Positions 1 through 47,370 of a stretch of 64,000 nucleotides of DNA are shown here, one piece after another. Below the pieces are notes generated by a model that saw nothing but the letters and a program-made list of their open reading frames with translations, searched no databases and was not told where the DNA came from. The translations under genes were made by a program, and so were the position numbers. Origin of the DNA: Bacillota bacterium (lineage in GTDB: Bacteria; Bacillota; Negativicutes; CTSoil-072); the NCBI GenBank assembly GCA_017889545.1, contig JAGFZV010000005.1:1-64000 (forward strand), written 5' to 3'. The stretch's first letter is position 1; each line of letters starts with the position of its first letter.

Positions 1-1
1 A

Positions 2-86
2 GGCGGCTAACCATTCAAAGCACTTGCAAGTGCAGCCGGTAATAACCCCTTATAGGGGTGGGACAAGCCGCCGGCTAAGCCGGCGG
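2..86 (+). other. structured RNA-like element with competing stems
   Basis: Seen directly: a 7-bp stem pairs 2-8 with 66-72 and encloses two hairpins (20-33, palindromic GCACTTGCAAGTGC; 45-59, ACCCC/GGGGT). A very strong 8-bp hairpin at 68-86 (CCGCCGGC/GCCGGCGG, 3-nt loop) uses the same bases as the 3' side of the closing stem, so the two folds exclude each other. No T-run follows the second hairpin, so it is not a standard terminator. A good promoter lies downstream (124-152), so this may be the tail of an upstream transcript. It could not be matched to a known riboswitch class. The left end may be cut by the window. Confidence 0.4.
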
Positions 87-123
87 TCCTGACTTTGCCA
101 GGTTTCACAAAAACATGTCTTAA

Positions 124-152
124 TTGCTATATTTGAACTAGAATGATAAAAT
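124..152 (+). promoter_or_regulatory. sigma-A-type promoter for the hpnK-GT39 cluster
   Basis: TTGCTA at 124-129, a 17-bp spacer, then TAAAAT at 147-152 preceded by TGA, giving an extended -10 (TGnTAAAAT). It lies about 37 bp upstream of the first gene of the envelope cluster. Confidence 0.5.
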
Positions 153-188
153 GTATATATTTGAAAATCTTTCTGTGAGGAGACTGCC

Positions 189-1055
189 ATGGAACGTAGA
201 ATCATTATCAATGCTGACGACTTTGGCTTGCATCCTGCAGTGAACCAAGGAATTATTGACGGTTTTTACAATGGTTGTATTACGAGCACTTCCATAATGC
301 CCGGCGGTGCAGCGTTTGATGAAGCGGTTAAATTGGCTTCTGTCCATCCTAAATTGGGTATAGGGGTACATTTAATGCTGGTTGGAGGAAGGGCCGTTTC
401 TAAACCGGCAGAGATTCCTACGCTGGCTGATGCTCAGGGTAATTTATCACTGGACTATCCTGTATTTTTAAAACGTTATTTCACCGGAAAGATTAATAAA
501 CAAGAAATTCGACGTGAACTGACTGCTCAAGTTGGCAAAGTTGCCAAAACAGGGCTGGTCATTACACATCTGGATAGTCACCAACACATGCATGTTGTGC
601 CGGGAATTATTGATATTGTTCTTGACATTGCCGCGCAATTTGCAATCCCTTCCATTCGCATACCGGCAGAGCCGTTGCTATTTCACGGCGGATATCCGCT
701 GAAGTGTTCACGACTTATTGCCCGTACCGGATTATCGGTATTATCTGAAATTGCGGCCTGGAAAGTGCGGCAACGGGGACTTCGCGCTCCGAAACACTTT
801 TTTGGCATGCTGGCTGGCGGCAATTTGCAATTGGAATACCTATTGACGATTATCAGACAGTTGCCGTCGGGTGTTTCAGAGATCATGATGCACCCGGGCG
901 TCAATGATGTGATTTTGCAGAAGAGCTATCAATGGGGATATCATTGGCAAGACGAACTGCAAGCCGTGACTTCTGTTCGTGCGCGTAATTGTTTACAGGA
1001 AGAAAAGGTGAAATTGATTTCTTTTCGGGAGCTATGCGATGAATCAATTAACTAA
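189..1055 (+). CDS. hpnK: HpnK/ChbG (YdjC-like) carbohydrate deacetylase
   Basis: 288-aa YdjC-family metal-dependent deacetylase. The metal-site motif NADDFG is at residues 8-13 (Asp10, Asp11), with His127, His131 and His133 in HLDSHQHMH and a C-terminal MHPG motif. The N-terminus and the GVHLMLVGGR segment look like the hopanoid-associated HpnK subgroup rather than E. coli ChbG. HpnK is known to remove an N-acetyl group from a lipid-linked amino sugar; no hopanoid gene is visible here, so the substrate is unknown. ATG start with GAGGAG about 7 bases upstream. First gene of a tightly packed cluster; its last 17 bp overlap the next gene. The family call is firm; the symbol rests on overall resemblance. 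Confidence 0.85.
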   Translation: MERRIIINADDFGLHPAVNQGIIDGFYNGCITSTSIMPGGAAFDEAVKLASVHPKLGIGVHLMLVGGRAVSKPAEIPTLADAQGNLSLDYPVFLKRYFTGKINKQEIRRELTAQVGKVAKTGLVITHLDSHQHMHVVPGIIDIVLDIAAQFAIPSIRIPAEPLLFHGGYPLKCSRLIARTGLSVLSEIAAWKVRQRGLRAPKHFFGMLAGGNLQLEYLLTIIRQLPSGVSEIMMHPGVNDVILQKSYQWGYHWQDELQAVTSVRARNCLQEEKVKLISFRELCDESIN

Positions 1056-2019
1056 ACGTCTTTTGCTATTGATGATTTTGATTGCCGGTATTTCAGCGGG
1101 AGTTATTTATATGACGATCGATGCTGAAACCTTGCGTCATTTAAATGTCTTTCAGTCTTGGTCCTTGTTTGCAGCAATCCTGTGTATTGTTGTAGGGATG
1201 TATTTTGATGGTTCACGTTTGATGCATTTGGTTTGGATATCCGGAGAACGAATTACTTTATTACAAGCGGTGCAAGTGGTGTTTAGCAATTACTTTTTGG
1301 CATTATTAACACCAGGCGCCGCTGGCGGCGCTTTCGCGCAGGTGATGTTTTTGCGGCGGGCCGGTGTGACTACCGGGAAAGCTACGGTATTGGTTTTAGT
1401 CAGAACAATTTTATCCATTTTGTTTTTGCTTATGTGCTTACCGGTGGTGTTCTATTTTGACCCTGGTCTCTTTCCTTGGATTTCTTCAAAGGCATTGGTC
1501 GCAGGGTCAATTGCAATGATCGGCGGCATTGCGGCGGGAATTTGGCTGTTCCGCACATCGTGGCCTAAACGATTCTTGGTGATATTGACCAGGAAGATGA
1601 AGCATCGCCGGCGTAGAAAAATTTTTTTGCTTTATGCGGAAATGCGGGGAGCAGTGTTGCTGCTTTCCTCGTCTCCGGGAAGCATGGTGCGCGTTTTCGG
1701 TGAATCTGCTCTTAGTTTATTGGCATTGTATAGTATTGTCCCTATACTGATTCAGGGGCTGGGGATGCCGGCTGACTGGGGACAATTGCTGGGAAGAATG
1801 GTTTTTCTAAATCTTTTTTTATATTTTGCTCCGACTCCGGGCGGCGCTGGAATTGCCGAAGGCGGGTTTGTGTTATTATTTAATGAATTTTTACCGGCAG
1901 GCACAGTGGGTATTGTCGCTGTAGCATGGCGGATATTGACGGAGTATTTGCCGTTTAGCATTGGTTTATATTATACGGTGAAAGTATTTGGACATGATTT
2001 CCTGGCCAAAGTGAAATAA
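1039..2019 (+). CDS. UPF0104 (LPG-synthase-TM/flippase-like) membrane protein
   Basis: 326-aa multi-spanning membrane protein with roughly eight hydrophobic segments, starting with a transmembrane helix at residues 8-26. The conserved features fit the UPF0104/AglD/LPG-synthase transmembrane family: LLTPGAAGGAFAQ near residue 90 and FAPTPGGAGIAEGG near 265. Relatives include the membrane half of MprF, which flips aminoacylated lipid, and proteins found in hopanoid loci. Translational coupling is likely, because the ATG lies inside the end of the deacetylase gene. In this context a role in moving a lipid-linked sugar across the membrane is reasonable inference, not shown by sequence. Confidence 0.8.
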   Translation: MNQLTKRLLLLMILIAGISAGVIYMTIDAETLRHLNVFQSWSLFAAILCIVVGMYFDGSRLMHLVWISGERITLLQAVQVVFSNYFLALLTPGAAGGAFAQVMFLRRAGVTTGKATVLVLVRTILSILFLLMCLPVVFYFDPGLFPWISSKALVAGSIAMIGGIAAGIWLFRTSWPKRFLVILTRKMKHRRRRKIFLLYAEMRGAVLLLSSSPGSMVRVFGESALSLLALYSIVPILIQGLGMPADWGQLLGRMVFLNLFLYFAPTPGGAGIAEGGFVLLFNEFLPAGTVGIVAVAWRILTEYLPFSIGLYYTVKVFGHDFLAKVK

Positions 2020-2035
2020 GGATGGAGGAATTGAA

Positions 2036-2956
2036 TTGAAAATTGCAGTAACCGGCGGCGCCGGATTTATTGGTTCACATGTTGTAGAAAAATTGTTGGC
2101 TGAAGGCATTGAGCCCATCGTAATAGATAATCTTTCCAGTGGACGGCGTGAAAATATTCCTGCCGGAGCATCCTTTGTGAATATGGATGTTCGCAGTAAA
2201 ACACTGCGGGAGTTATTTGCATTAGAGCGATTTGACGGTGTAGTGCATTTGGCGGCTCAGACTATGGTTCCGCAATCATTGCTTGATCCGGGTTTTGATT
2301 GTGACGTCAATATTCAAGGCACGATCAATGTTCTTGAAGCTTGCCGTGAGGGCAAAACGAAAAGAATTGTATTTTCATCCAGTGCGGCGGTTTATGGAGA
2401 TGCCGATACTCTGCCGCTTACTGAAAAATCATCTCAGCAGCCTACTTCTTTTTATGGACTTTCCAAGTTGACGGCGGAAAAATACTTGGAGCTTTATTAC
2501 CGGTTGTTTGGGATGGAATATGTAGTTTTGCGCTACGCGAATGTATACGGCGAGCGGCAGGGCGATGGCGGTGAAGGCGGAGTAGTTAGTATTTTTTCGC
2601 GTTTGATCCGTCAGGACAAATCGCTGACTGTTTTTGGCGATGGCGGGCAAACACGGGATTTTATTTATGTTGGTGATGTTGCATCTGCAAATTATAAGGC
2701 ATTGCTGACTGAAAATCCAAATGCGATATACAATATCAGTACAGGTCTTGAAACCAGTGTTAATGATCTGATTGCTGTGATGGAAGAGGCGGCGGCTAAA
2801 CCTGTTGCCAGAATTTATGCTTCGCCTCGCGAGGGCGATATTTATCGTTCGCGCCTGGATTGTCAGGCGGCGCTAACTAATTTAGGGTGGAAGCCATTCA
2901 CTCTGTTGAGCAATGGGATCCAAAGAACCTATCAATCCTTGGGAGGTATTCCATGA
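2036..2956 (+). CDS. NAD-dependent sugar-nucleotide epimerase/dehydratase (extended SDR)
   Basis: 306-aa extended short-chain dehydrogenase/reductase. The N-terminal Rossmann motif is TGGAGFIG (6-13), the catalytic pair is Tyr140 and Lys144 in YGLSK, and the VLRYANVYGERQ and VFGDGGQTRDFIYV segments are typical of UDP-glucose 4-epimerase-like enzymes. It would act on a nucleotide sugar in the cytoplasm; the exact substrate cannot be read from sequence. Start is TTG at 2036, with GGAGG at 2025-2029, six bases away; no better start is nearby. The stop codon overlaps the next ATG (ATGA). Probably supplies a modified sugar to the two membrane transferases that follow. Confidence 0.88.
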   Translation: MKIAVTGGAGFIGSHVVEKLLAEGIEPIVIDNLSSGRRENIPAGASFVNMDVRSKTLRELFALERFDGVVHLAAQTMVPQSLLDPGFDCDVNIQGTINVLEACREGKTKRIVFSSSAAVYGDADTLPLTEKSSQQPTSFYGLSKLTAEKYLELYYRLFGMEYVVLRYANVYGERQGDGGEGGVVSIFSRLIRQDKSLTVFGDGGQTRDFIYVGDVASANYKALLTENPNAIYNISTGLETSVNDLIAVMEEAAAKPVARIYASPREGDIYRSRLDCQAALTNLGWKPFTLLSNGIQRTYQSLGGIP

Positions 2957-4497
2957 TTCCCTGCCCCAAAAAAGAATTGCTTTTCGTTATCGCTTTCACG
3001 GCTTTTATCATGTTTTTTAATTTGGGGGGAATCCCGCTCTTGGATCCCGACGAACCGGTTTATGCAGAAACCCCTTTGGAAATGATCGCTTCTCATGATT
3101 TTTTGTCGCCGCGTATTTATGGAGAGTATTGGTACGATAAACCGCCTCTTTATTACTGGCTTGTCGCCGGTGCATTCAAAGTATTCGGCGTGAGCGAGTT
3201 TGCCGCTCGTTTTCCTTCAGCGCTCTTGGCTGTTTGCGGTGTGGCATTTGTTTATCATTCCGGTTTGCAATTATTCAGCCGTGGAGCAGGAATGGCCGGT
3301 GCGCTGGTTTTGGCTACCAGCATCGAGTATTTTTATTTAGGAAAGGCGGCAGTCACTGATATTACATTAACTTTCTGTCTTACGGTAGCTCTTCTGTCTT
3401 TTTTGCGTAAAAAATATTATTTGTTTTATGCTTTTGCCGGTTTGGCTGTTTTGGCCAAGGGTCCCGTCGGCCTCTTGTTCCCCGGCGCGATCCTGTTTCT
3501 GTATATGGTAGTGACCAGGCAGTTCAGTTTACTGGGAAAAATCAAGCTGCCGGGCGGGATCGTAGTATTTTCCTTGATTGCTCTGCCATGGTATATCATG
3601 ATGTATCAGGTTCATGGCAATGTTTTTTTGGACACGTTTATCGGGTTTCATAATGTCACTCGCTTTACGTCACCGGAACATCCGGAAAATGTATTGTGGT
3701 ATTATTTTCTTCCGGTTCTTTTACTTGGTTTTTTTCCTTGGACTGCAGTATTATTCCAATCGATCTGGAAGTCTTTAACGGTTACCCGCAGCGATGAATT
3801 CAATACAATGGTGTTTTTGAACATTTGGGCGATCTTTATCTTTCTGTTTTTCAGTATTTCTCAGACAAAGCTGGTTTCGTACATTTTGCCTATGTATCCG
3901 CCATTGGCGATGATTGCCGGCTGGTATATCAACCGGGTGATCGAAATGCATAAGTCCGTGCGTCCATTGTCTTGGCCGGTTTTACTGACAGTATTTACTG
4001 TTTTATGGTCTGTTGGACTGTTGTTTGGATTAAAAAATATGCCGGAACTGGCAATGGGAGTTTGGGCTGAAACCGCTGTTTTGGCAGTGATGACGGCCAT
4101 GGTATGGCATTATTACCGGAGCAAATCTTTTGCGCGGGCTTTTTGGATTCAAATCGCAGGCATGACGATTTTTGTCGTGCTGTTGGTCGGTATGCTGTTT
4201 CCTGCAGTAGCACCTCGATTTGCATCCACTGAAACTGCACAAGATTTCATACAATTCTATGACCGCCAGTCGCCGATCTATGTATTTAAGTTTTTGCGGC
4301 CAGGTTTCGCATTTTATTCCGGGTATTACGGCAATGTAGTTTTTACAGAAGCCGAACTGAACGACCGGATTGACAATGCGGGCAAAGCATATTTTGTTAT
4401 CCGTCGCATTGAATATGATTATCTATCGGAACACAGACGCGCTTCGCTTTCCATATTGTCGGAACGAGCGGGTGGAATGTTATTGATTAAACAATAG
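2953..4497 (+). CDS. ArnT-like GT39 membrane glycosyltransferase (copy 1)
   Basis: 514-aa polytopic protein of the GT39/PMT superfamily, which moves a sugar from a polyprenyl-phosphate carrier to an acceptor on the outer face of the membrane (ArnT, for example, decorates lipid A). An N-terminal helix is followed by the first-loop motif LDPDEPVYAE, then YDKPPLYYW, and a TD pair after the fourth helix (AAVTDITLTF) that matches the second conserved acidic site. The frame stays open back to 2887, but ATG 2953 is preferred: it overlaps the epimerase stop as ATGA and has GGGAGG about 8 bases upstream. Paralogous to the next gene. The acceptor is unknown. Confidence 0.87.
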   Translation: MIPCPKKELLFVIAFTAFIMFFNLGGIPLLDPDEPVYAETPLEMIASHDFLSPRIYGEYWYDKPPLYYWLVAGAFKVFGVSEFAARFPSALLAVCGVAFVYHSGLQLFSRGAGMAGALVLATSIEYFYLGKAAVTDITLTFCLTVALLSFLRKKYYLFYAFAGLAVLAKGPVGLLFPGAILFLYMVVTRQFSLLGKIKLPGGIVVFSLIALPWYIMMYQVHGNVFLDTFIGFHNVTRFTSPEHPENVLWYYFLPVLLLGFFPWTAVLFQSIWKSLTVTRSDEFNTMVFLNIWAIFIFLFFSISQTKLVSYILPMYPPLAMIAGWYINRVIEMHKSVRPLSWPVLLTVFTVLWSVGLLFGLKNMPELAMGVWAETAVLAVMTAMVWHYYRSKSFARAFWIQIAGMTIFVVLLVGMLFPAVAPRFASTETAQDFIQFYDRQSPIYVFKFLRPGFAFYSGYYGNVVFTEAELNDRIDNAGKAYFVIRRIEYDYLSEHRRASLSILSERAGGMLLIKQ

Positions 4498-4508
4498 GGG
4501 AGAGAAGG

Positions 4509-6107
4509 ATGAAAAACAAACTTGTTTGTTTGGCTGTTTTTGCCGGTGCATTGATTTATTTCCTGTTATTTAATGCGGGAATTCCAATTACTGACCCCGT
4601 TGAGGCTAATTATGCTTTAACAGCAAAAGAAATGGTAGCTAGCGGTGATTGGCTGTCGCCGCGTATTTACGGTCAGTATTGGTTTGATAAACCGATCATG
4701 ATCTATTGGCTGATTGCTCTTGCTTATAAAATCTTTGGCATCAATGAGTTTGCAGCCCGTTTTCCGGCCGCCGTATTTTCTGCTGCCAGCGTCGCTTGGC
4801 TGTTTTGGTTTGCCGATAAAATATACGCTTCACGCAGGACTGCTTTTTATAGCGCGCTGATACTTGCTACTTCGCTGGAATTTTGGGTTTTGTCCCGAAT
4901 GATTATTACCGATGCCGTTTTATTTTTGTTTACCAGCATGTCTATAGCTGCTTTTTATTTACAGTTTATCAACCGTCAGTCGTCATGGTATGTTGTTGCG
5001 TATGCTGCTGCTGGATTGGCAGTCCTGACTAAAGGACCTGTCGGCATCGTGTTGCCGGGGTTGATCATTTTTCTTTACCTGATTAGCGGCCGCCGGTGGC
5101 AGTTGATTTCAAAACTGCAATTATTGCGGGGCGGATTAGTATTTTTACTCGTGGCTGTTCCCTGGTATTTCGCGATGTACATTCAACATGGTAATGATTT
5201 TGTGAATACCTTTTTAGGATTGCATAATGTTTTGCGGGCTACCGTTTCCGAACATCCGCAGGATAATGTTTTCTACTATTATTTGGTATTATTCCCGGTT
5301 AGTCTATTGCCTTGGGCAGGAATATTTTTTCTTTCGCTTTTGCGGGGACGAAAAAATCATGGGGCCCATTTCAGTTATCTCCTGGTTTGGATTGCCGGTT
5401 TTTTGGGGTTTTACTCACTGATGGCAACGAAGTATTTGACCTATGTATTCCCTGCTCTGTTTCCGGCGGCGTTATTAGCCGGCCGCTGCTTGCAAGTCAT
5501 GGTACAGCAGGGCGGGAGAAGACAGTGGCTTTGGCTTTCTGGACCAACCGTTTTTTTGTTCGCCGTGTTTGCTGCGGCACCTCGTTTTTTCCCCTATTTA
5601 ACGGATTGGACAAGCCTGTACGGCTGTTTGGCAATCACTTCTTGTTTGATTATCTGGCTTCAATTTCGCGGCAATGTTCGTTTGTTGCCGGAAAGTACAG
5701 CGTTATCGGTGATGGCAGTCAGTTTGGTTCTTATCTACAGCGTTCTTATGCCACTGGCTGATTCGCGATCGGCGCGGGATATCGTTCAGCATTTACCGTC
5801 GAAGGGCGCAGACGTAGCAATGTATGGCGATTATGCGACATCTGCGGTATTTTACAGTGGATATGAGATCCCGGAGCTGTTTTTGGAAGGCGGTAAAAAA
5901 GATACCAGCGGCGTATGGTCCGGGAAATATACAATGCCGACGGAAACGATCGATGATTTCACAGTGAGAACCAGGGATCGACAGGAAGTTTACATCTTGG
6001 TTAAGTCGGAAGAAAATCGATTTTTGAGCGAGCCGATCGCTGACCGGTTTCAATTGGTCGCGCGGTATGGAAGATTGACGTTGTTCAAACAACAGATTGG
6101 TCCATGA
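4509..6107 (+). CDS. ArnT-like GT39 membrane glycosyltransferase (copy 2)
   Basis: 532-aa polytopic GT39 family protein, clearly a tandem paralogue of the preceding gene: WLSPRIYGQYWFDKP here against FLSPRIYGEYWYDKP there, plus shared EFAARFP and KGPVG segments. The first-loop motif reads TDPVEANYAL, so the Asp of the usual DE pair is Val here, while the downstream TD acidic site (IITDAVLF) is kept. Start ATG with GGGGAGAG just upstream; 11-bp gap to copy 1. The two copies probably act on different donors or acceptors, or one is regulatory; this is inference. Last gene of the cluster, followed by a terminator. Confidence 0.85.
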   Translation: MKNKLVCLAVFAGALIYFLLFNAGIPITDPVEANYALTAKEMVASGDWLSPRIYGQYWFDKPIMIYWLIALAYKIFGINEFAARFPAAVFSAASVAWLFWFADKIYASRRTAFYSALILATSLEFWVLSRMIITDAVLFLFTSMSIAAFYLQFINRQSSWYVVAYAAAGLAVLTKGPVGIVLPGLIIFLYLISGRRWQLISKLQLLRGGLVFLLVAVPWYFAMYIQHGNDFVNTFLGLHNVLRATVSEHPQDNVFYYYLVLFPVSLLPWAGIFFLSLLRGRKNHGAHFSYLLVWIAGFLGFYSLMATKYLTYVFPALFPAALLAGRCLQVMVQQGGRRQWLWLSGPTVFLFAVFAAAPRFFPYLTDWTSLYGCLAITSCLIIWLQFRGNVRLLPESTALSVMAVSLVLIYSVLMPLADSRSARDIVQHLPSKGADVAMYGDYATSAVFYSGYEIPELFLEGGKKDTSGVWSGKYTMPTETIDDFTVRTRDRQEVYILVKSEENRFLSEPIADRFQLVARYGRLTLFKQQIGP

Positions 6108-6112
6108 TCTTT

Positions 6113-6158
6113 AATGCCATCCACCAAACACCTTAGTGTGTTAGGAATGGCATTTTTT
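6113..6158 (+). terminator. rho-independent terminator after the GT39 pair
   Basis: AATGCCAT (6113-6120) pairs with ATGGCATT (6147-6154), with an inner ACAC/GTGT stem, followed by a run of T to 6158. Confidence 0.75.
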
Positions 6159-6349
6159 CATTTCTTTAACAACTCATTTACACTTTGTCGTAAAAATACG
6201 GTTAATATTGTTAAAAAAATATACACAAATAGAATAAGTGTAAAAATAAATAATTTTCTGTTTATTTTGCAGGAAAGAAATGGTGGATGGCGAAGAGAAT
6301 AAATATGAAATCTGAAAGATAATTTCCAAAAAAAGGAGTTGCTTTCATT

Positions 6350-7600
6350 ATGACCACAGAAAATTACAATCCGTTACTGGTAGCGCAAAAACAAATTGCT
6401 CACGCAGCGGAAAAGCTGCAGCTGGATTTGCGGATCCTTGAAATGCTGAAAGAGCCGGAACGATGCTTGGAAGTAAGCATTCCCGTGAAGATGGACGATG
6501 GCATGGTGCAGGTTTTTAAAGGATGGCGTTGTCAGCATAACACGGCAATTGGCCCGGCCAAAGGAGGTCTTCGTTACCATCCGGACGTGACACAGGAAGA
6601 GGTTAAGGCTTTAGCCATGTGGATGACCTTTAAATGTAATGTTGTGGGACTTCCTTACGGCGGAGGCAAAGGCGGCATCCGGGTTGACCCGCGTAAATTA
6701 TCTGTTGGGGAACTGGAACGAATGACTAGGGCCTACATTAATCTGATTGCGCCTGTTATTGGACCGACCAAAGACATTCCAGCGCCGGATGTTTATACGA
6801 CGCCGCAGATAATGGGCTGGATCATGGATGAATTTAGTAAAATTAACGGATGCAATGTTCCTGGTATAGTGACCGGTAAGCCAATTATTGTCGGCGGGTC
6901 GTTAGGACGCGATAAGGCGACAGCCCGGGGCTGCACAATTGTCATCCGCGAGGCGGCAAAAAAACTGGGTATTCCATTGCAAGGAGCTGCGGTTGCTGTG
7001 CAAGGGTATGGCAATGCGGGAAGCTTTTTGGCTACATTGCTGACTGAAATGGGCTGTAAAATCGTTGCTGTCAGTGACAGCAAAGGCGGTATTTATCATT
7101 CGGACGGCTTGAACGCACAGGCTGTGATTGATCATAAGGCTCATACCGGTTCTGTTGTGGGCTTTCCAGGCGCCAAAGTGATTACCAATCAGGAACTGCT
7201 TGATTGCGATGTTGATATTTTGGTACCAGCTGCATTTGAAAATCAAATTGATGCCGACGTTGCGGCTCAAGTAAAAGCAAAAATTGTAGCTGAGGCTGCC
7301 AATGGACCGACGACTCCAGAAGGAGATGCGGTTTTGTACGATAAAGGGGTATTGGTTATTCCTGATATTTTAGCAAGCGCCGGTGGTGTAACAGTTTCTT
7401 ATTTTGAGTGGGTGCAAAACTTGGCAAACTTCTACTGGTCATTGGAGGAAGTCAACAACCGACTGGAACATATCATGGTGAATTCTTTTGCTGCAGTTTA
7501 TGCAATGCATCAGGATAAAGGCGTCAGTATGCGGGATGCAGCCTATATGGTTGCAATAAACCGTATTGCAGAAGCGATAAAAATCCGGGGTTGGATATAA
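6350..7600 (+). CDS. gdhA: glutamate dehydrogenase (Glu/Leu/Phe/Val family)
   Basis: 416-aa hexameric-type glutamate dehydrogenase, interconverting glutamate with 2-oxoglutarate and ammonium. Substrate and catalytic lysines are visible: Lys71 in GPAKGGLRYHP, Lys95, and Lys107 in PYGGGKGGI. The nucleotide-binding domain has GYGNAG at 219-224. Length matches the RocG/GudB-size enzymes. ATG start with AAGGAG upstream. It is a single-gene unit, flanked by a terminator on the left and a long inverted repeat on the right. NAD or NADP preference was not determined. Glutamate is the more likely substrate than leucine or phenylalanine, from length and overall similarity. Confidence 0.93.
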   Translation: MTTENYNPLLVAQKQIAHAAEKLQLDLRILEMLKEPERCLEVSIPVKMDDGMVQVFKGWRCQHNTAIGPAKGGLRYHPDVTQEEVKALAMWMTFKCNVVGLPYGGGKGGIRVDPRKLSVGELERMTRAYINLIAPVIGPTKDIPAPDVYTTPQIMGWIMDEFSKINGCNVPGIVTGKPIIVGGSLGRDKATARGCTIVIREAAKKLGIPLQGAAVAVQGYGNAGSFLATLLTEMGCKIVAVSDSKGGIYHSDGLNAQAVIDHKAHTGSVVGFPGAKVITNQELLDCDVDILVPAAFENQIDADVAAQVKAKIVAEAANGPTTPEGDAVLYDKGVLVIPDILASAGGVTVSYFEWVQNLANFYWSLEEVNNRLEHIMVNSFAAVYAMHQDKGVSMRDAAYMVAINRIAEAIKIRGWI

Positions 7601-7875
7601 AGCCATAGAGTTTTATAAAATCGGGCATGAATAAGCGTTGGATCCTGCTATACTGTTTAGCAGGATCCAACGCTTATTCATGCCTGAAAAAACATATCGG
7701 TACTGATTATTCACCTTAGCTGAACACCGGTTCAATGCTTGCAGGCGGAGCAATGGGAACTGTTTCGGTTTGTCCATAGGCAGTTAATCGGCATGGTTTG
7801 GGAAAAGCATCGTTTCATGATAACGGCGTGCTTAAAAGAATAATTGGATAAAGATAAAAAAAGGTAGAATTAATA
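7601..7875. other. intergenic stretch, mostly featureless
   Basis: Between gdhA and the nrdR control region. It holds the long inverted repeat at 7624-7684, a small TTTTATAAAA palindrome at 7611-7620, and no convincing gene, promoter or further RNA structure in about 190 bp to the right of the repeat. Confidence 0.5.
7624..7684. repeat. perfect 27-bp inverted repeat, 7-nt loop
   Basis: Left arm 7624-7650 and right arm 7658-7684 are perfectly complementary over 27 bp; the loop is TACTGTT. On the plus strand it is followed by TGAAAAAA, not a T-run; on the minus strand the arm is followed by CGATTTTA. It probably acts as a transcript end or stability hairpin for gdhA, but it is not a textbook terminator. 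Bases 7628-7639 (TGAATAAGCGTT) nearly match the outer arm of the hairpin after pyrR. Confidence 0.8.
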
Positions 7876-7916
7876 CTACATATGGATTATAATAGTCTTG
7901 TGTGTACAATATATAG
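7876..7916 (+). promoter_or_regulatory. two NrdR boxes flanking a -10 element
   Basis: CAATATATAG at 7907-7916 is an exact match to the core of the known NrdR box (CwAtATaTwG), and CTACATATGG at 7876-7885 matches 8 of 10. The boxes are 31 bp apart, about three helical turns, the spacing known for NrdR targets. TATAAT at 7888-7893 sits between them; its -35 is weak. Repression of nrdR-nrdD-nrdG by NrdR with its dNTP effector is the natural reading. Confidence 0.75.
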
Positions 7917-7934
7917 TGATTGGGGGGCTGACCG

Positions 7935-8396
7935 GTGCGATGTCCGTTTTGCGGTTTTCTGGAAAGCAAAGTCATTGATTCTCGTGCGACGGAGGAGGGC
8001 GGTTCCATTCGCCGGCGTCGTGAATGCTTGCATTGCGGGCGGAGGTTTACTACCTATGAAGTAGTGGAAGAAATGCCGCTCATGGTGATTAAGAAAGATG
8101 GGCGACGAGAACTTTTTGACCGGTCAAAACTGCTGAATGGATTATTAAGAGCGTTCGAAAAACGGCCAGTTCCGCTCAGTATGATTGAGTCGCTGGCGGA
8201 TAAGGTGGAAATGGAACTTCGCAACTCAATGGAAAGGGAGATACAGACTCGTCAAATTGGAGAAACAGTGATGCGGTATCTCAAAGAAATTGATCAGATC
8301 GCTTATGTCCGGTTTGCTTCTGTGTATCGACAGTTTGCCGATGTCGAAAATTTTAAACTTGAACTTGAGGCGCTGATAAATTCACAAAAAAAATAA
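7935..8396 (+). CDS. nrdR: transcriptional repressor NrdR
   Basis: 153-aa NrdR, the nucleotide-sensing repressor of ribonucleotide reductase genes. A zinc ribbon at the N-terminus has Cys3, Cys6, Cys31 and Cys34, followed by an ATP-cone domain ([16 protein letters not shown] near residue 51). Start GTG at 7935 with a GGGGGG ribosome-binding stretch; the first codons place the CPFC motif at residue 3, as is normal for the family. Two NrdR boxes lie directly upstream, implying autoregulation. nrdD follows after 30 bp and nrdG after that, so the repressor is co-transcribed with its target. Confidence 0.96.
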
Positions 8397-8426
8397 CGGC
8401 TATTGCTACGAAAGGTGAGGGTACTG

Positions 8427-10439
8427 ATGTTTACAAAAATTAAAAAGCGGGACGGCAGGGAAGTACTGTTTGATGAAGCGAAAATTACGGAAGCAATTTT
8501 TAAAGCCGCTAAAGCGGTAGGCGGGGCCGATAAGCAAATGGCAATGGAATTGACTTTGGATGTGCTGCGCTTTCTTAAACAGAAATATAATGGCGGTATC
8601 TTTAATGTTGAAGATGTTCAGGATGCAGTAGAAAAAATATTGATTGAAAAGGGCCATGCCCGAACCGCAAAGGCTTATATTTTGTACCGTTATAACCGAA
8701 CGCGGATGCGTGATGCGAAATCGGATTTGATGGATGCTGTGGCGGATATTTTGATCGAGACCAGTCGTGAAAATGCAAATGTTTCCAATTCCCCTTCGGC
8801 AAAAATGTTGCAGATTGCCAGTGCAGCCAGCAAGTCTTATTATTTAAACCGGTTGATTCCGGAAAAATTATCGATCGCCCACCGGCGCGGCGATATTCAC
8901 ATTCATGATCTTGATTTTTACGGTAAAACGTTGACCTGCGTACAAATCCCTCTTGGGAAATTATTAAATACCGGGTTTAACAATGGACACGGTTTTATTC
9001 GATCCCCTAAACGGCCTGCTTCGGCAACCGCGTTGGCGGCCATTATTCTGCAAAGTTCTCAAAATGATATGCATGGCGGGCAGTCGTTCGCTTTTTTTGA
9101 CCGGGACATGGCGCCATTTATGGCCAATGCCGGTGAAGATGAAATTTATCAGGCAATGGAAGCCTTGATATATAATTTGAACAGTATGCATTCCCGGGCC
9201 GGAGCACAGGTACCGTTCTCCAGTTTGAATATTGGCAGCGACATATCTCCGGCTGCCCGAGCGGTAACCAGGAATATTCTATTGGCTTATGAAAAAGGAC
9301 TGGGCCGCGGCGAAACGCCCATTTTCCCGAATATTATCTTCCGTCTGAAAGAAGGAGTTAATTTCAATCCCGGTGATCCCAATTATGATTTGTTCCAATT
9401 AGCGATCAGAGTAGCAGCGCAACGGCTAAATCCAACTTTTAGCTTTATGGATTCTTCCTTTAATAAAGAATACGGCGACCAGGTCAGTTATATGGGTTGC
9501 AGGACACGGGTCATGGCTGATCGGTTTGGCGAAGCAGTGACCGATGGCCGGGGAAATCTGAGTTTCACTACTATAAACCTGCCCCGGTTAGCGATCAATG
9601 CAGAACGAAACTTAATGAAGTTCTATCAGAGTCTGTCCGAGTTGATCGATATGACGTGTGAACAATTGTATCATCGTTATGACGTTCAGGCGAATTTGAA
9701 AGTGAAAGATATGCCGTTTCTTATGGGTCAGCATCTTTATCTGGATTCGGACAAATTGGGGCCGAATGACAAACTTGAACCGGCGATCAAACACGGTACG
9801 TTATCTGTTGGTTTTATCGGCTTGGCAGAAACGCTTACTGCACTGACTGGTCATCATCATGGACAAAGTGAGGAAGCGCAGGTTCTTGGGGAAGAGATTG
9901 TCGCGTTTATGCGGAATAAGATTGACAAGGCGTCTGAACAATACGATTTAAATTACACGTTGCTGGCAACTCCGGCGGAAGGCTTGTCAGGACGATTTGT
10001 GAAAATGGATCTTAAAGAATATGGCATCATTCCTGGTGTTACCGATAAGGAATATTACACGAATTCCTTCCATGTCCCGGTAAACTATCCAATCAGCGCG
10101 TTCGACAAAATCCGTCTGGAAGGAATTTACCATAAGTACACCAATGCCGGACACATCAGTTACGTGGAGTTTGCGTCACCTCCGGCACATAACTTGCAGG
10201 CAGTGGAAGATATTCTTCGCTTTATGGCGAAAAGCGATATGGGTTATGCTGGAATTAATTTCCCGGTTGATTTTTGTGATGAATGCGGGTATTTGGGCGT
10301 TATTGATCAGGATAATTGTCCAATGTGCGGACAGACGGCGATTAGACGGATCCGTAGGATTACCGGCTATTTAAGTACAATAGAGCGTTTTAATGATGCG
10401 AAATGTAAAGAATTGGATGAGAGGGTAGCTCATTTTTAA
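8427..10439 (+). CDS. nrdD: anaerobic (class III) ribonucleoside-triphosphate reductase
   Basis: 670-aa glycyl-radical enzyme making deoxynucleotides without oxygen. It begins with an ATP-cone (KIKKRDGREVLFDEAKI), followed by the reductase barrel (MGCRTRV; LSFTTINLPR). The C-terminus has a zinc site (CDECG and CPMCG) and the radical loop RRITGYL, with Gly647 as the radical-bearing residue. The frame is open from TTG 8403, but ATG 8427 is chosen because AGGTGAGG lies just before it and the ATP-cone starts directly after. Acts with NrdG, encoded next. Implies an anaerobic lifestyle. Confidence 0.95.
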   Translation: MFTKIKKRDGREVLFDEAKITEAIFKAAKAVGGADKQMAMELTLDVLRFLKQKYNGGIFNVEDVQDAVEKILIEKGHARTAKAYILYRYNRTRMRDAKSDLMDAVADILIETSRENANVSNSPSAKMLQIASAASKSYYLNRLIPEKLSIAHRRGDIHIHDLDFYGKTLTCVQIPLGKLLNTGFNNGHGFIRSPKRPASATALAAIILQSSQNDMHGGQSFAFFDRDMAPFMANAGEDEIYQAMEALIYNLNSMHSRAGAQVPFSSLNIGSDISPAARAVTRNILLAYEKGLGRGETPIFPNIIFRLKEGVNFNPGDPNYDLFQLAIRVAAQRLNPTFSFMDSSFNKEYGDQVSYMGCRTRVMADRFGEAVTDGRGNLSFTTINLPRLAINAERNLMKFYQSLSELIDMTCEQLYHRYDVQANLKVKDMPFLMGQHLYLDSDKLGPNDKLEPAIKHGTLSVGFIGLAETLTALTGHHHGQSEEAQVLGEEIVAFMRNKIDKASEQYDLNYTLLATPAEGLSGRFVKMDLKEYGIIPGVTDKEYYTNSFHVPVNYPISAFDKIRLEGIYHKYTNAGHISYVEFASPPAHNLQAVEDILRFMAKSDMGYAGINFPVDFCDECGYLGVIDQDNCPMCGQTAIRRIRRITGYLSTIERFNDAKCKELDERVAHF

Positions 10440-17441: not shown

Positions 17442-17474
17442 GTTAGCTATATCATCATGACAACATATGACAAA

Positions 17475-17710
17475 GTAATGATGGAGGCAGTAGCCGGGAC
17501 ATTGCGTTTCTCAGCGAGCCAGGAAGTGGTGTGAGCCTGGTGGAGCGTGTCGATGGTGAAAATCTCTCCGGAACTGCGAACTGAAATTTAGTAGGATTCG
17601 CCGGGTAACGAGCGTTATTTCGTTCAGAGTAGCTGCTTGGCGGTTATTAGGGTGGTACCACGGGATTAAAAATCTCTCGTCCCTTTTTAGGGATGAGAGA
17701 TTATTTTTTT
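17475..17710 (+). promoter_or_regulatory. T-box leader (tRNA-Ile sensing) for ileS
   Basis: The leader carries the T-box core AGGGTGGTACCACGGGA at 17649-17665, whose bulge pairs with the uncharged tRNA acceptor end. The likely specifier codon is ATC at 17562-17564, in GGTGAAAATCTCTCC, which fits isoleucine. The terminator is at 17671-17710: AATCTCTC pairs with GAGAGATT and is followed by seven T. Uncharged tRNA-Ile would favour the antiterminator and ileS expression. Confidence 0.93.
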
Positions 17711-30376: not shown

Positions 30377-30401
30377 TTAGTTTATTGTTAAAAGCATATT
30401 T

Positions 30402-30539
30402 GCTCATCAAGAGTTGGTCGAGGGAGAGGCCCGATGAAACCGCGGCAACCATTGGCTATGGCCAAAACGGTGCCAATTCCTGCGATTTTCGCAAGATGGG
30501 AGAGTATTAGTAATGCCTCCTCCTGCAGGGGGCTTTTTT
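30402..30539 (+). promoter_or_regulatory. SAM-I (S-box) riboswitch with terminator
   Basis: S-box signature ATCAAGAG, GGCCCGATGAAACC and GCGGCAACC between 30405 and 30450, closing with GATGGGAGAG near 30504. The terminator at 30515-30539 (GCCTCC / GGGGGC, then six T) completes an OFF switch. High SAM should stop transcription before metK. Confidence 0.95.
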
Positions 30540-47160: not shown

Positions 47161-47207
47161 TTTTTTTGCTAGTTAGTGGTAACATGTAAAAAGAAATTGA
47201 ATAATTA

Positions 47208-47334
47208 TGCCTTTGGGGTAAGGTGAAAAAGAGCAATCTTTTGATTCCTGACCGGCGGTAGAAGCCCGCGAGCCGTAATGGCTGATCCGGTTACATTCCG
47301 GAGCCGACAGTAAAGTCTGGATGGGAAAAGGCAG
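47208..47334 (+). promoter_or_regulatory. FMN (RFN) riboswitch
   Basis: RFN signature segments are in order: GGGGTAAGGTGAAA, TTCCTGACCGGCGGTAGAAG, CCCGCGAGCC, ATCCGGTTACATTCCGGAGC, CGACAGTAAAGTCTGGATGGG. A terminator at 47371-47398 follows, so FMN should switch off the rib operon by premature termination. Confidence 0.96.
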
Positions 47335-47370
47335 GTTTTAGGCCTCAGTATAGGCTTGTTACCTTATTTT

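Follow-up and report, generated by a model that had tools for sequence, protein, structure and literature searches.

The stretch analyzed here (the window, 64,000 nucleotides) belongs to a genome of the Negativicutes (Bacillota bacterium, lineage CTSoil-072; assembly GCA_017889545.1, 3.27 Mb in 50 contigs, completeness 95.96%), and its first base is also the first base of contig JAGFZV010000005.1, hereafter C25. As the window opens at a contig edge, the sequence to the left of the gene cluster considered below cannot be seen. This cluster, at 189-6107 of the forward strand, consists of five consecutive genes for a YdjC-type deacetylase, a UPF0104 membrane protein, a GalE-like short-chain dehydrogenase/reductase (SDR) and two ArnT-like GT-C transferases (GT39a and GT39b). 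An earlier note on this DNA had read them as an Arn-like pathway of lipid-sugar modification, and our analysis favors a related reading, in which the cluster would encode most of a pathway that brings a hexosamine, carried by polyprenyl phosphate (polyprenyl-P), to the cell envelope. The features discussed are the following.

189..1055, forward strand: YdjC-family N-acetylhexosamine (HexNAc) deacetylase, labelled HpnK, predicted to deacetylate polyprenyl-P-HexNAc; PF04794, E 3.5e-71.
1039..2019, forward strand: UPF0104 / LPG_synthase_TM membrane protein, putative polyprenyl-P-aminosugar flippase; PF03706, E 2.4e-34.
2036..2956, forward strand: GalE-like SDR, putative uridine diphosphate (UDP)-HexNAc 4-epimerase; PF01370, E 2.8e-61.
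2953..4497 (open frame from 2887), forward strand: GT39a, ArnT-like GT-C transferase of the DPDE clade; PF13231, E 1.3e-19.
4509..6107, forward strand: GT39b, ArnT-like GT-C transferase of the DPVE clade; PF13231, E 7.5e-25.
6113..6158, forward strand: intrinsic terminator, hairpin at 6113-6154 and then a T run; fold z -3.85.
C42:4916-8524, reverse strand: a third transferase, GT39c, with an OmpR-type regulator and a sensor kinase (locus L046), likely an inducible arm of the same pathway.

The genes overlap or nearly touch, as the earlier note had stated: the first and the second overlap by 17 nt, the second and the third are separated by 16 nt, the third and the fourth overlap, and 11 nt separate the fourth from the fifth. 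For the fourth gene, ATG at 2953 is a likelier start than GTG at 2887, because it forms an ATGA overlap with the stop codon of the third gene (four bases inside it) and gives a protein of 514 amino acids, the length found in most relatives. The single terminator proposed for the cluster end was also recovered, with a hairpin of -15.9 kcal/mol against -7.0 ± 2.3 in shuffled sequences, which a simpler scan had overlooked; the next gene, at 6350-7600, encodes glutamate dehydrogenase. The proposal of one shared promoter fared worse, since promoter-like sites within 1-9000 were at chance level (20 found against 17.5 ± 3.8 expected); judged by spacing, a common promoter for the five genes is plausible. 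Upstream of the first gene, at 67-87, there is a strong GC-rich inverted repeat with no clear T run and no Rfam match.

The deacetylase, encoded by the single YdjC gene of the genome, scored far above the cut-off of its superfamily (PF04794, 240.6 against 29.7 bits), and the solved structures closest to it are the YdjC/ChbG-type 2i5i and 7vi8. Its residues D10, D11, H61, H127, D129, H131, H133, H135 and H235, among which we assume the metal ligands to lie, are conserved in 90 aligned Negativicutes homologs (three of the 93 HpnK-type rows were dropped before counting). The HpnK model (TIGR03473) gave 224.2 bits at a cut-off of 232.6; four Negativicutes relatives scored 211-222 bits, and HpnK from the hpnIJK locus of Mycetohabitans scored 413. 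A quick tree placed 59 Negativicutes rows on one side and four reference rows on the other, with a support of 78. No match to squalene-hopene cyclase was found in the genome, a search by which only two of 14 controls were matched, both below cut-off. Because the HpnK cut-off is missed and a hopene cyclase match is lacking, the name HpnK appears to be a misnomer for this branch; the earlier note had put HpnK in the place of ArnD, and for this part the family has to be changed. For the same reasons we reject the modification of hopanoid side chains, which the name would imply. It is true that the protein shares the superfamily and matches the HpnK model at 224 bits, and that a PF03706 protein adjoins hpnK in a hopanoid hpnIJK locus too; nevertheless, a score so far below that of the hopanoid-locus enzyme, together with the absence of HpnI and HpnJ from the cluster, makes this function extremely improbable. 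A role of ChbG in chitobiose use was rejected as well: NF002559 gave 165 bits at a cut-off of 227 (363 for Rahnella ChbG), and none of the five genes is a chitin-use gene.

The closest solved structures of the SDR are the UDP-glucose 4-epimerases 4zrm and 2p5u, followed by 6wjb; the entries 6wj9/6wjb we take to be the UDP-N-acetylglucosamine (GlcNAc) 4-epimerase PelX. Four more SDR paralogs, of 33-37% identity, are encoded elsewhere in the genome (three of 48 SDR rows were dropped before counts). The protein thus resembles a GalE-like UDP-hexose 4-epimerase, a candidate for GlcNAc- or glucose-type sugars, and not a counterpart of ArnA or ArnB.

The best NCBIfam match of both PMT_2 transferases in the cluster was ArnT (NF009784), at scores below its cut-off of 567 bits (144.5 for GT39a and 157.3 for GT39b; GT39c gave 138.5). 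GT39b is homologous to the solved ArnT 5ezm (E 7.7e-33), and when its low-confidence structure model (pLDDT 61.7, pTM 0.64) was used for fold matching only, Foldseek put ArnT first (5f15, E 2.8e-13; also 5ezm). GT39c, the third GT39 gene of the genome (C42:6893-8524, minus strand), belongs to the DPVE clade, and within 15 nt of its end there begins the gene of an OmpR-type regulator, then that of a sensor kinase; the regulator scored 159.8 bits with the PmrA model (NF007928, cut-off 330). The position of GT39c directly upstream of this pair suggests that a part of the system is stress-induced. Out of 65 GT39 rows collected, 60 of at least 450 amino acids were aligned, five shorter ones being dropped (four with wrong-frame starts, one short). 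The first loop starts with DPDE in 35 of the aligned proteins and with DPVE in 25 (one of them DSVE), no protein having both, and the two groups split with a support of 100 in a tree made with the motif masked. The valine of DPVE aligns with the aspartate of PDE in ArnT 5ezm. According to the PimE paper (PMC12041525), ALG6, ArnT and PglB have a catalytic aspartate where this loop has its tip; by our own reading, this residue of 5ezm is the one in PDE. The motifs described for the first periplasmic loop of ArnT, RYA and YFEKP with an essential Tyr and Lys (PMC5377068), are replaced by VYA and YDKP in GT39a and by NYA and FDKP in GT39b, the Tyr and Lys of the loop being retained.

The earlier note had stated that hopanoid genes and homologs of ArnA, ArnB and ArnC are missing from the window. 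No ArnC-like gene was found on contig C25 and no hopene cyclase match in the genome, the searches having not been aimed at ArnA or ArnB. The polyprenyl-phosphate transferase of family GT2 that the note had expected is, however, present in the genome. A search with the Selenomonas GT2 of locus L033, whose gene is flanked by those of a GT39 and a YdjC protein, gave one strong match (E 1e-109, 54% identity), with the complete reading frame at C28:27886-28851; the second-best match had E 9e-12. The solved relatives closest to it are sll0501 (E 2.1e-79), presumably the polyprenyl-phosphate glucosyltransferase GtrB, and then ArnC (E 6.4e-49), while the ArnC model itself (NF007986) gave 188.5 bits at a cut-off of 529. 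Judged by eye, the genes flanking it look like those of a cell-wall hydrolase and, at the opposite end, of a hydrogenase. The genome therefore holds a YdjC deacetylase, an ArnC-like GT2 and an ArnT-like transferase, i.e., the gene set of the NaxD/Flm type, distributed over three loci (C25, C28 and C42).

The conservation of the cluster was analyzed in a class-level sample of 150 genomes, because the family level contained only the genome itself, and the synteny set comprised 58 deacetylase loci, one for each other genus with a match (for the genera of G075 and G086, a genome other than the first listed was taken for its longer contig). The flippase gene directly follows that of the deacetylase in 34 of the 58 genera; an SDR gene lies within about 4 kb in 32, a GT39 gene is nearby in 36 and two such genes in 15, and deacetylase, flippase, SDR and GT39a occur together in 22 (one of 43 flippase rows and two of 26 GT2 rows were dropped before counts). 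Eight loci (L080, L085, L101, L102, L110, L115, L117, L130) have the five genes in precisely the order seen in the window, and in Selenomonas-type loci (L031-L033, L084, L131) GT39, GT2 and deacetylase stand side by side. Synteny is thus kept across many families, and the scattered occurrence that the earlier note had named as contrary evidence was not seen.

In several relatives all the parts stand in one cluster. The order in L132 is deacetylase-GT2-flippase-SDR-GT39a-GT39c-regulator, followed by a kinase gene that extends beyond the stretch. Clusters of this kind, comprising GT2, GT39a, a DPVE-type GT39, regulator and kinase, were also seen in L099, L124, L135, L136, L138 (where the kinase precedes the regulator) and L139, and L137 agrees with them as far as its contig reaches. 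The regulator and kinase accompany seven of these eight GT2-bearing clusters, L137 stopping at the contig edge. In these clusters the GT2s share 66-70% identity with the C28 enzyme, the regulators 54-61% with that of C42 and the kinases 30-46%. L135-L139 were picked for an already visible proximity and serve as examples, not as a rate; within the 58-genus set, the regulator-kinase pair lies downstream in five loci (L077, L091, L099, L124, L132). This unity in relatives ties the C25, C28 and C42 loci together, which correspond to a single cluster elsewhere. Many Negativicutes have a second copy of the deacetylase (L135-L140, L142), in L135-L139 together with GT2, GT39s and mostly the regulator pair, and these five loci form an accessory, probably inducible twin of the cluster. 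In L136 (G055:C1), GT39c matches in two pieces with one TAG inside and is probably a broken gene.

Among the 150 genomes, the deacetylase was detected in 128, the GT2 in 125, GT39 in 138 and LpxC in 147. Deacetylase and GT2 occur together in 120 genomes and are both lacking in 17, with the deacetylase alone in eight and the GT2 alone in five (Fisher p 2e-12); for deacetylase and GT39 the respective numbers are 125, nine, three and 13 (p 1e-6), these p values ignoring kinship between the genomes.

The roles are also kept where the proteins change, as is expected of a carrier-lipid pathway. In G002 and G007, which lack a GT2 ortholog at E 1e-60, a shorter DPM1-like GT2 is encoded inside the cluster (L077, L081); the best solved relative of the one in G002 is dolichol-phosphate mannose synthase, followed by ArnC, and the one in G007 is 69% identical to it. 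L124 has no UPF0104 gene, and a 153-residue EamA transporter, which we take to belong to the broad superfamily containing ArnE/F, is encoded between deacetylase and GT2. Ten loci (L012, L017, L025, L028, L029, L104, L113, L119, L121, L133) are deacetylase-GT2-DUF6056 cassettes, in which DUF6056 (PF19528, a family different from GT39 and given no function by Pfam) stands at the place of GT39 and could act as a substitute transferase on this donor. In L139 (8590-11240), a DedA/VTT protein and a PAP2 phosphatase are encoded between the core genes, a pair that would fit carrier-lipid recycling; in B. thailandensis, full modification of lipid A with aminoarabinose requires a DedA protein, DbcA (PMC7835334).

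The UPF0104 protein, the sole match of its kind in the genome, reached its family cut-off (PF03706, 119.6 against 33.4 bits), and its profile found no solved relative. Within the proposed pathway it would flip the polyprenyl-P-aminosugar. A different role is suggested by the pairs GpgD and GpgF (UPF0104, COG0392) of P. aeruginosa and HexD and HexF of C. difficile, which are described as following the same deacetylase-plus-flippase logic: HexNAc would be put directly on a membrane lipid, deacetylated by the YdjC enzyme and flipped by the UPF0104 protein, with the GT39s serving another purpose. Deacetylase-UPF0104 pairs without a nearby GT39 in L087, L107, L111, L116, L118, L127 and L134 agree with such a glycosyl-phospholipid pathway, and so does a weak match of the UPF0104 protein to the GpgF model for the flippase of glucosaminyl (GlcN)-phosphatidylglycerol (NF053789, 55.5 bits). 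That model, however, has a cut-off of 320 bits, the window cluster contains no GT4-type synthase, and the sugar-lipid synthases linked in relatives are GT2s of the polyprenyl/dolichyl-phosphate type. Considering, moreover, the linkage of GT39 in 36 of 58 genera and that ArnT, its solved relative, takes a polyprenyl-P donor, we regard direct glycosylation of a membrane lipid as improbable.

Taken together, these data favor, with a probability of roughly 0.7, the reading of the cluster as most of a polyprenyl-P-hexosamine pathway for the cell envelope. The GalE-like SDR would interconvert UDP-GlcNAc and UDP-N-acetylgalactosamine (GalNAc), and the ArnC/GtrB-like GT2 of C28 would load HexNAc onto polyprenyl phosphate. 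The YdjC enzyme would then deacetylate the product in the cytoplasm, and the UPF0104 protein would flip the resulting polyprenyl-P-hexosamine. Outside the membrane, the sugar with its positive charge would be passed on by GT39a, GT39b and the unlinked GT39c, the likeliest targets being phosphates or sugars of lipid A/lipopolysaccharide (LPS), and the C42 pair may control a part of the system. Whether the sugar would be galactosamine (GalN) or GlcN is about evenly balanced, with a leaning to GalN because the GalE-like gene travels with the deacetylase though four other SDR paralogs exist. The Arn-like logic noted earlier appears well supported by the GT2 in the genome, the clustering of all parts in relatives, the replacement of parts and the co-occurrence, and the presence of LpxC agrees with it; the assignment to HpnK did not hold, and the epimerase is no counterpart of ArnA/B.

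Several observations weigh against this reading. UPF0104 genes also accompany deacetylase genes in pathways without a polyprenyl carrier, as in gpgSDF, hexSDF and a hopanoid hpnIJK locus. A GT39 match without a deacetylase was found in 13 of the 150 genomes; neither GT39, GT2 nor DUF6056 is near the deacetylase in 15 of the 58 genera (some of these stretches end at contig edges), and in Sporomusa loci the deacetylase stands with or without the SDR only, beside lar, folE2 and cbi genes. G018 (87% complete) has deacetylase-regulator-kinase and no GT2 ortholog or GT39 at the cut-offs used. Furthermore, since 147 of 150 genomes have LpxC, an outer membrane as such does not discriminate between the readings.

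Given a polyprenyl-P-hexosamine pathway, we somewhat prefer the phosphates of lipid A/LPS as the main acceptor. The same donor could instead serve the LPS core, another glycolipid, or an S-layer or pilin protein, as the PMT families include protein O-mannosyltransferases and the ArnT motifs do not take the forms RYA and YFEKP in either clade of GT39. The three transferases of this genome suggest more than one acceptor, and DUF6056 proteins at the place of GT39 point the same way. On the other hand, ArnT is the closest solved relative both by sequence and by fold, and the known sets of YdjC, ArnC-like and ArnT-like proteins modify lipid A; accessory copies of the cluster are accompanied by a two-component system and once by a DedA gene, a combination known from charge-modification systems. 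That the sugar goes to something other than lipid A is thus rather unlikely, though it deserves consideration.

For comparison with known systems, FlmK and LgmB are taken here as ArnT-like transferases. The use of a YdjC deacetylase for such a step has a precedent in the NaxD type of lipid A modification (PMC11279074): in Francisella (naxD occurs also in Acinetobacter), NaxD, a deacetylase of the same superfamily, acts on undecaprenyl-P-GalNAc. FlmF2 is the ArnC-like GT2 of that pathway. The likeness is one of families and gene set, and the Negativicutes system differs in its clustered UPF0104 flippase and GalE-like epimerase, in the number of its transferases (two or three, from two clades) and in its diderm Firmicute host. 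LgmB of Bordetella is reported to put glucosamine on lipid A phosphates and to raise peptide resistance (PMC8168481); the system described here differs by the UPF0104 flippase and the second GT39 clade, and lipid A is a proposed acceptor. With Arn (Pmr) it would share the order of events, i.e., a sugar on polyprenyl-P, deblocking, flipping and transfer, as well as a linked OmpR-type regulator in relatives, whereas YdjC replaces ArnD, UPF0104 replaces ArnE/F, presumably a hexosamine replaces 4-amino-4-deoxy-L-arabinose (Ara4N), and the scores with the ArnT and ArnC models remain below cut-off. The gpgSDF and hexSDF systems likewise combine a deacetylase with a UPF0104/MprF-like flippase and make a cationic amino-sugar lipid; unlike here, they modify phosphatidylglycerol or a diradylglycerol glycolipid directly, and the available parts of their descriptions report no polyprenyl carrier or GT39. 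The hpnIJK locus of hopanoid glycosylation also has a deacetylase of the same superfamily adjoining a PF03706 protein, but the substrate here would be different and the HpnK score is below cut-off. On a Mycetohabitans megaplasmid (L147:2983-4898), the PF03706 gene directly follows hpnK within such a locus, and its product may be a glucosaminyl-hopanoid flippase.

The logic of the pathway, one by which bacteria alter their surface charge, is known from Flm/NaxD and Lgm, and what is new is the gene set, its class-wide spread in diderm Firmicutes, the type of flippase and the DPVE clade. Searches of the open-access literature (subscription papers being largely outside their reach) yielded no description of the cluster in Negativicutes and nothing on lipid A modification in this class; the eLife paper PMC5007114, which treats the LPS of diderm Firmicutes, does not contain the words "deacetylase" or "glycosyltransferase" or words starting with "arn". 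Elsewhere in the window there are a T-box leader (17469-17687), a SAM riboswitch (30401-30502) and an FMN riboswitch (47205-47336).

The Negativicutes are LPS-bearing Firmicutes common in the gut and mouth. For this branch of deacetylases, the present analysis corrects the HpnK annotation, and the DPVE clade would provide a natural experiment on the requirement for the canonical aspartate in GT-C transferases. As a tentative extension, which we hold to be doubtful, there might be a class-wide cationic-sugar pathway of diderm Firmicutes with UPF0104 as the polyprenyl-P-hexosamine flippase, in which one of the two old transferase clades, DPVE, would work without the Asp that serves as catalytic base in other GT-C enzymes, either because the invariant Asp of its motif, located two residues upstream, takes over as base or because a phosphate as acceptor makes a base unnecessary. 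If the proposed pathway is true, UPF0104 would be a candidate for the flipping of sugars linked to such a carrier, and the near-universal gene set would predict a charged hexosamine in the envelope of these bacteria, bearing on their tolerance to peptides and their immune recognition.

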